A stretch of DNA of 64,000 nucleotides from Halosegnis rubeus (GTDB lineage Archaea; Halobacteriota; Halobacteria; Halobacteriales; Haloarculaceae): NCBI RefSeq assembly GCF_009184545.1, contig NZ_QJOW01000002.1, positions 124,001 through 188,000 of the forward strand, written 5' to 3'. A program made the position numbers and the translations under genes. Under the pieces are notes generated by a model. It did no database searches. It had not been told where the DNA came from and worked only from the letters and a program-made list of their open reading frames with translations. This document shows, one piece after another, positions 20,543 through 55,867 of the stretch; position 1 is the first letter of the stretch, and the number at the start of each line of letters is the position of its first letter.

Positions 20543-22039
20543 ATGTCAGCCGACGACAGCCCCGACGCGTACGATTCCCTCCTCGAACGGTACGAACGCG
20601 CCACCTACATCGGTGACGCCGCGGGTGTCCTCTCGTGGGATCAAGAGGTCGTGATGCCGGAAGGTGGCACGCCCGCCCGCTCGAAGCAGACCTCCGCGCT
20701 CTCAGGTGCCCGCCACGACATCCTGACGAGCGACGAGTTCGAAGCCGACCTGAACGCCGCCGAGGACGCCGACCTCTCCGACGAGCAGGCGGCCGTCGTC
20801 CGCGAGATTCGCCGCGAGTTCGACCGGGCCGCCAAGGTGCCGAAATCCCTCGTCGAGCGCATCTCCGAGGAGACCTCGAACGCCCTCCCAATCTGGAAGG
20901 AAGCCAAAGCCGAGGACGACTGGGAGACGTTCGCCCCGCAGGTCGAGACGCTCCTCGAACTCAAGCGCGAGTACGCCAACCACATCGACCCCGAGACCGA
21001 CACCTACGAGGTGTTGTTCGCCGACTACGAGCCGTGGCTCGACCTCTCGGTCGCCGAGGACGTGCTCGAACAGCTCCGTGACGCCCTGATTCCGCTCATC
21101 GACGAGCTAAACGAGACCGACGCCGACCTCGCTACCCCGTTCGACGGGACCTACTCCGACGATGACCAGTTTTCCCTCGCGGAGTCGACCCTCGAGTATC
21201 TCGGCTACCCCGAGGAGCACGGCCGACTCGACACGGCCCCGCATCCGTTCTCGTCGGGCACGCAGTTCGACGCCCGCGTGACGACGCGCTTTGACAACGA
21301 GGACCCCGTCGGCTCCATCGGCTCGGTCATCCACGAGTTCGGCCACGCCACCTACACCCTCGGGCTGCCGCGCGAGGCGTACGGCACGCCGCTCGGCCAG
21401 AACCGCGGGCTGACGGTCCACGAGTCGCAGTCTCGGCTCTGGGAGAATCACGTCGGCCGCTCGGCGTCGTTCCTGTCGAGCTACGTCGACCTCGTGAACG
21501 ACGACCTCGGCACGGACATCTCGGGACGGGAACTCTACGAGGCGGCCAATCAGGTGTATCCGGACAACCTGATTCGCGTCGAGGCCGACGAGCTCACCTA
21601 CCACATGCACATCATCCTCCGGTTCGAAATCGAGCGCGACCTCCTCTCGGGCGACCTCGACGTGGCCGACGTGCCCGAGGCGTGGAACGCGAAGATGGAG
21701 GAGTATCTCGGCGTCACGCCCGACACCGACGCCGAGGGCTGTCTGCAGGACATCCACTGGGCACACGGCTCCTTTGGCTACTTCCCGACCTACTCGCTCG
21801 GCTCCGTCCTCGCCGCCCAGCTGTTCGACGCGGCCGAGTCCGATATCGACGGATTGGACGCACAGCTCGCGGACGGGGAGTTCGACGCGCTCCACGAGTG
21901 GCTCACCGAGGAGGTCCACCAGCACGGGGCGCGCTACACCACGAACGAACTCGTGAAGCGCGCGACCGGCGAGGAGTTCTCGGCCGACGCGTTCATCGAC
22001 TACGCTGACGCGAAGTTCTCTGACCTGTACGACTTGTAG
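20543..22039 (+). CDS. Metallocarboxypeptidase, M32 (Taq) family
   Basis: 498 residues, full family length. The zinc site is HEFGHATYTLGL (about residue 264), followed by the Glu in HESQSRLWENHVGRS and the family block DELTYHMHIILRFEIE. It removes C-terminal residues from peptides in the cytosol with a metal cofactor. A CTTTCTTA element about 25 bases before the ATG suggests a leaderless mRNA. Monocistronic; it faces a large gene-free gap on its 3' side. Confidence 0.95.
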   Translation: MSADDSPDAYDSLLERYERATYIGDAAGVLSWDQEVVMPEGGTPARSKQTSALSGARHDILTSDEFEADLNAAEDADLSDEQAAVVREIRREFDRAAKVPKSLVERISEETSNALPIWKEAKAEDDWETFAPQVETLLELKREYANHIDPETDTYEVLFADYEPWLDLSVAEDVLEQLRDALIPLIDELNETDADLATPFDGTYSDDDQFSLAESTLEYLGYPEEHGRLDTAPHPFSSGTQFDARVTTRFDNEDPVGSIGSVIHEFGHATYTLGLPREAYGTPLGQNRGLTVHESQSRLWENHVGRSASFLSSYVDLVNDDLGTDISGRELYEAANQVYPDNLIRVEADELTYHMHIILRFEIERDLLSGDLDVADVPEAWNAKMEEYLGVTPDTDAEGCLQDIHWAHGSFGYFPTYSLGSVLAAQLFDAAESDIDGLDAQLADGEFDALHEWLTEEVHQHGARYTTNELVKRATGEEFSADAFIDYADAKFSDLYDL

Positions 22040-22156
22040 GACTGCGCTAAGTGGGAATTCGGATATTTTGATTGACTTTTTTCATGAATTAGCCGAAAGT
22101 CCTGGTCGCGTCATTTGGTGGATTCAGCTACGTAGCTGAGATTATCTTGAAAGCCC

Positions 22157-22250
22157 CGGGCGTGTCGCGGTCGCTCCGTGACATCTCTCGCTCACGTTCG
22201 TTCTCGTCGAGAGTGGTCACGGACCCGACCACGCGAACGCGACACGCCCG
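22157..22250. repeat. Long imperfect hairpin
   Basis: Outer arms CGGGCGTGTCGCG (22157-22169) and CGCGACACGCCCG (22238-22250) match perfectly over 13 bp. Inside them CCGTGAC pairs with GTCACGG and CTCTCG with CGAGAG. An RNA of this stretch would fold into one stacked stem of about 94 bases. It could be a terminator, a small RNA or the ends of a short inverted-repeat element. Confidence 0.65.
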
Positions 22251-22280
22251 TTTGTGCAAGACGCTGCGCGTCTTGCTGAC

Positions 22281-22308
22281 CCTGAAGTCTGCCATGGCAG
22301 ACTTCAGG
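22281..22308. repeat. 28-bp perfect palindrome
   Basis: The half-site CCTGAAGTCTGCCA (22281-22294) is followed at once by its exact reverse complement, with no spacer. A perfect 28-bp palindrome in noncoding DNA is unlikely by chance; as RNA it would form a tight hairpin, as DNA a protein-binding site or cruciform. Confidence 0.75.
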
Positions 22309-22494
22309 ACCCCTTTCACTCCACCCAACCACACCGCCCTCACGCCTCCCCAGCCGATTCACTCGCTGCGCTCGTTTATCCACTGTCAGCACACGCGCTG
22401 ACAAGCTGTCGCTCGGTGCCCTCGCGACGACCTCGCGACGACGGGCGCGCACAAGGCGCGCCGGCTCACGCCACCGCACTGCGTTGCTTGACTG

Positions 22495-22706
22495 GGCAAC
22501 CGTGCGGTGGCCTGACGCACCGGCGAAGCCGTGTGCGTCGTGGGGAAGGGTTGGGAGAGTGGCCGACGGCCACGGGCCAGCGAGCGGGAGCGAAGCGACA
22601 CGCGAGCGGGCGGTCCGTCGCGCCCTCGTGGCGCGACACGACCGCTGTGGTCGCGGTGCTGTTTCCCCGATGCCAAGCATTGAGAGTGGTCGCGGTGCTG
22701 TCGAAC
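22495..22706 (+). repeat. Dispersed noncoding element, copy A
   Basis: It shares a series of words in the same order and strand with 55653-55774: GGCAACCGTG, CGGTGGCCT, CGCACCG, GGGTTGG, GCCAAGCA, GAGAGTGGT and TGTCGAA. Copy A has about 90 extra bases in the middle. It also holds a 16-base direct repeat GTGGTCGCGGTGCTGT at 22647 and 22686. Confidence 0.65.
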
Positions 22707-22806
22707 CCACACCACAAAGCGCCGTAGTGTCAAAATACCGGACGCCAGCCAAACAACCGAAGGACGAGAAAATCAGCGAAGAAGACGAAAGAACGAAAAT
22801 CGAACT

Positions 22807-23553
22807 CTAGACGTTCTGGGCGTCGTAGGTGACCTGTACGGTGACAGAGACGCTCACGGGACCGGCGTCGATGCTGGTCGCCGCGCCCGCACCACCGCTG
22901 TCAGCGGCGTAAGCGACGGGGCGGTTGTAGTCGGTCGTGGTCGAAATATCGGCCGTGCCGGTGAGTTCGAGACCGCCGTTGTCGGCAAGCGTCTCGGCCT
23001 CACCGCGGGCCGTCTCCATCGCCTCGGCGAGCGCCTGCGTGCGAAGCTCCTGTCGTGTCTCCTCGAAGAGAGTAAAGCGCACGTTCTCGACGTAGCTCGC
23101 GCCACCGTCGACGGCGGCGTCGATGGCGGTTCCGACGGCGTCGGTGTCACTCAGCCGAATCTCGAAGCTGTGTTGGCCGCGGTAGGCGGGCGCGTCGGGA
23201 TTCTCGCGGCTCTCGTAGTTGCGTGAGATGTCGTAGCGAGCCGTGCGAAGCTGGTCGCCGTCGATACCCGCGTCGGCGAGAGCACCGCGCATGCCGTCGG
23301 CGTCGGTGGCGAGGGCCTCACGCACCTCGCTCGCGCTGTCGGCGGTTGCCTCGACGGTGACGGCGACGACGGCGCGGTCGGCCGCGGCCTCTGCGTCACC
23401 GACCCCGGTCACGGTGACGGTCGGGGCGTCACTCGACTGTTGGGTCGCGGGCTGTGCGGGCTGGTCGTTCGACGAGACGGCCGCGGCGAGACCGCCCCCG
23501 GCGAGGAGCACGGCGACTGCGACGGCCACGGTAGCGAGTGTCTGTTTGCGCAT
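22807..23553 (-). CDS. SIMPL-domain (DUF541) secreted protein
   Basis: 248 residues. A signal peptide (KQTLATVAVAVAVLLAGGGLAAA) is followed by the SIMPL domain: VTVTGVGDAEAAADRAVVAV, an alternating strand-helix pattern, RGQHSFEIRLSD near residue 125, and a C-terminal VSVSVTVQVTYDA. The family is periplasmic or surface-located and of uncertain function (some link to stress tolerance). A small palindrome TGGTTA-GA-TAACCA at 23572-23585 lies about 20-30 bases upstream and overlaps the likely TATA region, so it may be an operator. Confidence 0.85.
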   Translation of the reverse strand: MRKQTLATVAVAVAVLLAGGGLAAAVSSNDQPAQPATQQSSDAPTVTVTGVGDAEAAADRAVVAVTVEATADSASEVREALATDADGMRGALADAGIDGDQLRTARYDISRNYESRENPDAPAYRGQHSFEIRLSDTDAVGTAIDAAVDGGASYVENVRFTLFEETRQELRTQALAEAMETARGEAETLADNGGLELTGTADISTTTDYNRPVAYAADSGGAGAATSIDAGPVSVSVTVQVTYDAQNV

Positions 23554-55080: not shown

Positions 55081-55560
55081 ATGGAGGTCAAATCGCGCCA
55101 CCACCTGCGCGGCGACGAAATCGACGACATCGTCGAGACGATTCGGGCGACGTTTGGGGTCGAAATCGACGGCGACAGCTTCGAGGACGTGACGTTCGAC
55201 GACTCCGACCAGCGGGTCGTCCTCGTCGACGGCGACCCGTACGTGGTCTTCTTCGATGGGGAGCCGTCGCTGACGGTCAACGGCGCACAGGAGTTCGCGC
55301 CCGAAAGTCGCGTCGTCACCGTCGACGCCGGCGCGATCTCGTTCGTCTCGGACGGCGCTGACGTGATGCGTCCCGGCATCGTTGAGGCCGACGCGGACAT
55401 CGAGGCGGACGATCTGGTCGCGATTGCCGAGGAGAGCCACGGCAAGGTGCTCGCCATTGGTCGCGCGCAGGTCGGCGGCTCCGAGATGGTCGGCGACAGC
55501 GGGAAGGTGGTCGAGTCGCTCCACCACGTCGGCGACGACCTGTTCGAGTTCGCTGTTTAG
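55081..55560 (+). CDS. PUA-domain RNA-binding protein (MCT-1-like)
   Basis: 159 residues. The first half (SRHHLRGDEIDDIVETIRAT) matches the pre-PUA domain and the second half has a PUA fold: VMRPGIVEADADIEADDLVA, SHGKVLAIGRAQVGGSEM. Relatives take part in translation or tRNA modification. A GATTTATTC element about 25-33 bases upstream is the promoter. The long gap downstream contains dispersed element copy B. Confidence 0.88.
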   Translation: MEVKSRHHLRGDEIDDIVETIRATFGVEIDGDSFEDVTFDDSDQRVVLVDGDPYVVFFDGEPSLTVNGAQEFAPESRVVTVDAGAISFVSDGADVMRPGIVEADADIEADDLVAIAEESHGKVLAIGRAQVGGSEMVGDSGKVVESLHHVGDDLFEFAV

Positions 55561-55867
55561 GACTGCTGTTTTTGCCTTGACGGCTTGCTGACTTCGGCTT
55601 TGATGGTTCGCGACCTCGTGCTGATTCGCGCTCGGACCACGTCACCCGCACAGGCAACCGTGGCGGTGGCCTACCGCACCGCTCGCCGTGCGAGCGTGTG
55701 CGGTCCGGGGGAGGGTTGGCGCGGTACCGGTCCCGAGGCCAAGCAACGAGAGTGGTGGCGGTGGTGTCGAAGTGACGACGAGCAGGGGGTGTTGACGTGA
55801 TAGCGAACGGGGTGGTGTCGAAACCAAACGACACAGAACCGGCCGTATAGCAGACACGACAGCGGCT
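55561..55867. other. Gene-free convergent gap
   Basis: Between the 3' ends of the PUA and DUF1028 genes. No credible frame. It holds dispersed element copy B (55653-55774); the rest shows no clear structure, apart from a further related word GGTGGTGTCGAA near 55811. Confidence 0.6.
55653..55774 (+). repeat. Dispersed noncoding element, copy B
   Basis: Starts GGCAACCGTGGCGGTGGCCT and ends GAGAGTGGTGGCGGTGGTGT then CGAA. It shares ordered words with 22495-22706 on the same strand but lacks that copy's middle part. Like copy A, it occupies a convergent gap. Confidence 0.65.

Follow-up and report, generated by a model that had tools for sequence, protein, structure and literature searches.

Probable decayed copies of a haloarchaeal MITE with paired hairpin domains in Halosegnis rubeus

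Two related repeats in the window

The window, a 64,000-nucleotide stretch of Halosegnis rubeus DNA, carries two related intergenic repeats, A and B. Copy A (approximately 22149-22715) lies between a 498-aa ORF on the plus strand (20543-22039), which may be an M32-type carboxypeptidase gene and whose orthologous flank in the sister species G004 is 94-95% identical, and a 248-aa ORF on the minus strand (22807-23553). Copy B (55648-55780, plus strand) lies to the right of a 159-aa plus-strand ORF (55081-55560) with orthologs in G004 and G003. Both repeats are placed between converging genes, as the initial annotation had stated. The interval that it had assigned to A (22495-22706) is inside the element and covers only its right part.

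Three parts can be distinguished in copy A. The left end (22149-22320, minus strand) reads as a hairpin domain of variant b (AGTGAAAGGGG, hairpins, GGGGCTTTC). It contains an inserted 26-base palindrome, CTGAAGTCTGCCATGGCAGACTTCAG (22282-22307), which is also present in several other copies and missing from the G004 ortholog of A. Central module X follows on the minus strand (22321-22480), with the conserved TCGGCTGGGGAGGC (22344-22357) and a GCGGTGGCG start. The third part (22481-22715, plus strand) consists of a central right module (GCAACCG..GGTGGCCT, hairpin, GGGGAAGGGTTGG) and the right tail, and was aligned with 15 further copies. Within it, the previously reported 16-base direct repeat is exact: GTGGTCGCGGTGCTGT occurs at 22647-22662 and again at 22686-22701, both on the plus strand, with starts 39 bases apart. 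In copy B only the central right module and the tail are left, the left hairpin domain and module X having been lost; at the B site of the sister species the left part is still present.

B had been described as a second copy of A. Their similarity, with both copies in the same orientation, is confirmed. The divergence between them was too high for a DNA search with A as query to pair B directly, but both match common third copies in the genome: G000:C8:113774-113909 was 85% identical to B, and G000:C8:113848-113925 was 83% identical to A. DNA searches of the own genome yielded 23 matching pieces for A and 22 for B (E<=1e-3). Within the window, moreover, the tail word GGCCAAGCAACGAGAGTGGT is confined to B, where it is perfect, and A, where it has 3 mismatches; 0.01 occurrences were expected by chance. 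Chance similarity of GC-rich gaps, for which nothing speaks beyond base composition, is refuted by the genome matches and the tail word, and reversed controls of the conserved pattern described below returned 0 matches among the rows listed; we regard its probability as negligible.

A modular family with outward hairpin domains

The family containing A and B occupies at least 17 sites in its own haloarchaeal genome. Sixteen aligned copies, A and B included, have a common core, GCAACCG-GGCGGTGGCCT, hairpin, GGGGNAGGGTTGG, which in most of them is followed by the tail CCAAGCAACGAGAGTGGTCGCGGTGCTGTCGAA. To the left of the core, most copies carry an opposite-strand module with TCGGCTGGGGAGGC and ACTGAAAGGGG, and the hairpin-rich left end terminates in GAAAGCCCC (plus strand) in most own-genome copies. 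The full element is modular: its variable centre is flanked on either side by a hairpin domain, GACTGAAAGGGG-hairpin-GGGGCTTTC, that points outward.

This twin arrangement recurred with R1, a covariance model of the hairpin domain, whose matches were often minus-then-plus pairs. Among 40 loci (the top-scoring R1 matches, one per genome), 19 had a second match that was counted as partner by eye from the match table. Seventeen of the partners lay on the opposite strand at a distance of 16-28 bp, and those in L214 and L204 were 84 bp and 215 bp away, respectively; a weak L205 match at the edge of its stretch and an L221 match ~1.6 kb off were not counted. The minimal form reads GAAAGCCCC-hairpin-CCCCTTTCAGTCCCACCC-spacer-GGGTGGGACTGAAAGGGG-hairpin-GGGGCTTTC, and in the window's genus the central module and core stand in place of the spacer. 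One own-genome copy (L177) retains both end domains, with R1 scores of 45.6 bits on the minus and 97.5 bits on the plus strand. R1 had no match in A at E<=1; this copy carries extra inserted hairpins. The left domains of the G004 orthologs, by contrast, were matched both for A (L146; 48 bits, E 2.9e-6) and for B (L152; 35 bits, E 6e-4). These matches connect the copies in the window with the element found across the class.

Distribution across haloarchaea

The words of module X recur on other contigs: at least 116 stretches contain the pattern GGCTGGGGAGG-N12-34-ACTGAAAGGGG, and the 80 matches listed were all haloarchaeal by title. Among sampled genomes of the class, 50 of 391 contained the pattern, representing 26 of 86 genera. 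With R1, matches at E<=1e-3 were obtained in 323 of 381 Halobacteria genomes and in 75 of 85 genera; at most nine candidates per genome were scored, so that copy numbers from this survey are floors. In a phylum sample of 294 genomes, 48 had R1 matches (E<=0.01), all of them in the window's own family or order and none outside the order, and five family or order genomes among those listed were without a match. The hairpin unit also occurred in 67 plasmid records. The 40 of these that were listed are all haloarchaeal by name, and the named ones include Natrinema, Haladaptatus, Halobaculum and Halobacterium. No match to plasmid records was found for a 53-base terminal repeat.

Neither this class-wide family nor its paired outward hairpin domains had been foreseen in the initial annotation, nor had the decayed and site-stable state of the window copies described below. 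In Halobacteria, the element could be a widespread and so far unnoticed source of structure between genes, of rearrangement and of read-through control. No earlier description of a twin-hairpin element of this kind was found in the open-licence literature, and of the listed papers that contain the conserved words, none was on archaea by title.

Terminal repeats, target duplications and the link to IS6

Intact elements are GC-rich, approximately 300-420 bp long and without a long ORF; the longest ATG frame in nine intact copies (307-416 bp) was 67 aa. Terminal inverted repeats (TIRs), GGYASTGTTYAGATWAGC, were present in recent copies from G251, G292, G006 and G107, and in recent copies of the element the hairpin domains lie inside them. 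Two copies in G251 (L239 and L240) were 99.7% identical over 377 nt and had unrelated flanks, and the copies of this genome are bounded by GGTACTGTTTAGATTAGC and an inverted counterpart. When all loci were scanned, 14 of 23 distinct TIR-bounded intervals had a perfect 8-bp direct repeat at their borders; random placement gave 25 of 4600 (0.5%). In the scan and in the control alike, each border was allowed to shift by a few bases. Twelve of the intervals hold GACTGAAAGGGG: six had perfect duplications (L187, L240, L241, L242, L244 and L247), one matched at 7/8 and five at 3-6/8. A further copy outside the script's pattern (L245) has GGTGAGGG on both sides, as judged by eye. The initial suggestion of a small non-coding element, either mobile or RNA, was right in substance: TIRs, 8-bp duplications and near-identical recent copies in other genera demonstrate mobility, and covariation together with a modest excess of G.T over A.C (see below) points to structure in the single strand.

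The search for element ends, conducted in ten genomes, also yielded insertion sequences of ~700 bp (L266, L267 and L269). L266 encodes an IS6-family transposase (NF033587 transpos_IS6, E 6.2e-55; Pfam DDE_Tnp_IS240, E 1.5e-6), and the IS6 frame is open in G345 (L266) and G292 (L269) and truncated in G251 (L267). Four of the 23 TIR-bounded intervals are such IS6 elements, with border repeats that are perfect in L266 and L269, 7/8 in L251 and 3/8 in L267. A GTGTTYAGWTWAG-like end is common to the short element (L240 and L187) and the insertion sequences (L266, L267 and L269). TIRs, 8-bp duplications and insertion sequences that have the same ends and encode an IS6 transposase together identify the element as a MITE. 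Judging from the shared ends and the length of the duplication, fresh copies were very likely moved by an IS6 transposase, which would mobilise the element in trans by acting at the ends common to both.

Like other MITEs, the element is short, lacks a transposase, has TIRs in common with an autonomous IS, creates target duplications and occurs in many copies. It differs from them by its two strongly covarying hairpin domains with varying arms and by its reach, as it occurs in the majority of the genomes sampled from one class. With the IS6 family (IS240/IS26 type) it shares the 8-bp duplications and, as judged from the IS6 copies identified here, a similar terminal repeat, and its end presumably resembles the IS26 end GGCACTGTT; unlike them, it has no transposase gene, and its internal sequence is unrelated to the IS. 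The BIME/REP and BOX elements of bacteria are likewise intergenic and modular and contain paired imperfect hairpins, but the element described here is larger, archaeal and equipped with IS6-type ends.

In Haloquadratum walsbyi, MITEs, PATEs and other small mobile repeats have been described, and at some positions the repeats differ between two strains (PMC3119063). Its PATEs, which are transposase-free IS605-type derivatives, and its SwitchRepeats resemble the present family in several respects: near-terminal palindromes, absence of an ORF, internal (core) deletions, many divergent, heterogeneous copies and differing repeats at a given position (PMC3119063). However, PATEs are described in that paper as lacking TIRs and target duplications, whereas recent copies of our element have both. 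These features rule out an IS605-derived PATE for the intact form and make this origin highly improbable for the family.

Several additional loci with IS6-type ends were encountered. L251 (G345) contains two tandem IS6 transposase genes within one pair of ends (1394 bp); the reading frame of one of these genes is only partly complete. Five intervals in G006 and G107 (L249, L258, L263, L265 and L276; 216-592 bp) have IS6-type ends and perfect 8-bp duplications and lack the hairpin domain; they are apparently further IS6-related MITEs. L274 (G251) is a 64-bp relic whose inside has been deleted; the two terminal repeats are still in place, as is a perfect 8-bp duplication. For L237 and L238 of the same genome, the 8 bases to the left of one copy (CTCGCGAC) are, by eye, the 8 bases just to the right of the other; perhaps recombination between the copies swapped their flanks.

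Stable sites and exchanged centres in the window's genus

The check for terminal repeats and target duplications that the initial annotation had proposed was positive in recent copies of other genera, and neither was recognisable at A and B. The same held for L176 and L177: at these four copies the best ends matched at 9-13 of 18 positions (10-13 at A and B), and random segments at 8-13. The window copies are old and decayed, without recognisable terminal repeats.

We compared 19 own-genome sites with the sister species G004. At 15 of them the element was present between matching flanks (~83-95% identical), and remnants of two more (L006 and L176) were found at the orthologous place, so that 17 of the 19 sites are common to both species; nothing points to recent transposition within the genus. 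One of the 19 sites (L178) is a weak tail match. Another (L011, G000:C8:319001) is not shared: in G004 the two flanking sequences are separated and inverted relative to each other, as if the copy sat at a rearrangement breakpoint. No clean empty site was found among the sister genomes compared: the B site of G003 holds unrelated sequence, and no element was seen 3' of the A-side gene in G001, G002, G003 and G005, where right-hand synteny is lost.

The content of these stable sites was not conserved. In 12 orthologous pairs with readable cores, core identity was 0.810, compared with 0.802 in 180 non-orthologous cross-species pairs (permutation P 0.19), and in most orthologous pairs the apical hairpin, inspected by eye, differed in kind with both arms still matching. 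This combination suggests exchange between copies, for which gene conversion is the simplest reading; replacement by reinsertion is the alternative. In H. volcanii, gene conversion between genome copies is very efficient (PMC8223754). The stable sites and interchangeable contents of the 12 orthologous pairs make gene conversion between dispersed repeats testable in polyploid archaea.

Taken together, these data make it probable that A and B are decayed members of a haloarchaeal MITE family with class-wide reach, whose copies were moved by IS6 and later decayed and exchanged their centres. After insertion, copies would persist, lose their terminal repeats and gain and lose hairpin modules, and they would swap centres with copies elsewhere by gene conversion; such exchange would explain why A and B are alike only in patches.

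Covariation and strand asymmetry of the hairpin domain

The hairpin arms between GACTGAAAGGGG and GGGGCTTTC vary from copy to copy. A complementary arm in front of the GGGGCTTTC-like end was present in 101 of 119 instances, so that the two words enclose a long hairpin. Of the 119 instances, 74 had a nearby 3' end; 53 were left after irregular hairpins had been removed by eye, and 41 were aligned. In this alignment 93.0% of the cells were paired, a value that holds for regular members, compared with 74.2% after shuffling. Double-changed cells numbered 200 (shuffled: 62.8), 21 pairs were changed on both sides, and none of 500 shuffles was as high on any measure. When the partner was offset by 1-3 bases, pairing fell to 28-51%. 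The closing helix GAAAG/CTTTC was invariant in the 41 members and is by itself uninformative on pairing. An upper helix, examined by eye, repeats a motif with fixed unpaired purines that is also present in the central module, where several pair types substitute for each other. Very many hairpins whose arms have been rewritten and yet remain complementary offer a natural experiment in genetically tractable hosts.

Mismatches in the stem were unevenly distributed. On the strand reading GACTGAAAGGGG, 67 were G.T and 33 A.C in 179 distinct model-aligned copies (two-sided binomial P 0.0009), an asymmetry of only 2:1 in an alignment fitted to the model and among copies that are not independent. An earlier count on the outer arms, restricted to instances in which nine or more of 13 arm bases were matched (89 of 119), had given 18 G.T and 6 A.C. 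As a double-stranded cruciform should yield no such asymmetry, the constraint seems to act on one strand of the hairpin domain, as RNA or single-stranded DNA, and its effect is modest.

Strong covariation, invariant internal-loop positions and the excess of G.T would be expected if each hairpin domain were a transcribed functional RNA, that is, a member of a structured non-coding RNA gene family whose dispersal is secondary. However, no promoter-like AT signal was found at a fixed upstream distance in 71 aligned copies, no orientation preference relative to the neighbouring genes was seen in 108 loci, and Rfam gave no match above the gathering score for the window and five loci. Since the terminal repeats and duplications moreover show transposon-style travel, and the strand asymmetry is subject to the limits given above, we consider an RNA gene family unlikely.

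Genomic placement and possible termination

None of the 119 instances overlapped a called gene. The neighbours of 108 instances were convergent in 28 cases, divergent in 31 and tandem in 49; the background from the same loci, 525 gene pairs with gaps of >60 bases, was 81 convergent, 157 divergent and 287 tandem, with crude gene calling and with the element gaps included. In the second sample of 40 loci, one was convergent, 12 were divergent and 27 tandem. The convergent placement of A and B is therefore not general to the family (28/108 and 1/40), and the lack of an orientation preference counts against a fixed role as terminator or leader.

Host-beneficial bidirectional transcription terminators retained between genes would account for a hairpin followed by CTTTC at both exits. 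According to PMC7237163, the T stretch at intergenic 3' ends of H. volcanii finishes at a C, and in a reporter one hairpin motif gave 59% termination. The T3 run of the element is short, however, and a terminator that serves the host fits poorly with 12 of 40 and 31 of 108 loci in divergent gaps and with only one of the 40 in a convergent gap, so that we find this explanation quite unlikely.

We would guess, with low confidence, that the outward hairpins followed by TTTC could be transcription terminators; such a role might render insertions less harmful, and pairing might then be kept while the sequence drifts. More broadly, the end domain may be a folded RNA or single-stranded DNA under selection, serving as a transposon-borne outward terminator or insulator that IS6 spread over nearly the whole class, with centres converting and arms remaining matched. 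We put this forward tentatively. If the end hairpins terminate transcription, RNA 3' ends are expected to cluster at GGGGCUUUC.

Two other candidates for a structure were rejected. A G-quadruplex formed by the conserved G runs was dropped because the second run is short in the many copies with GGGTGGACTG instead of GGGTGGGACTG, and a sub-threshold Rfam match to a miRNA was judged to be due to chance. Short tandem repeats, each restarting with GGGGCTTTC, follow the right end on the 3' side of GGGGCTTTC at several loci, L045 and L074 among them, and the G004 ortholog of A carries a threefold version of this repeat on its left end.
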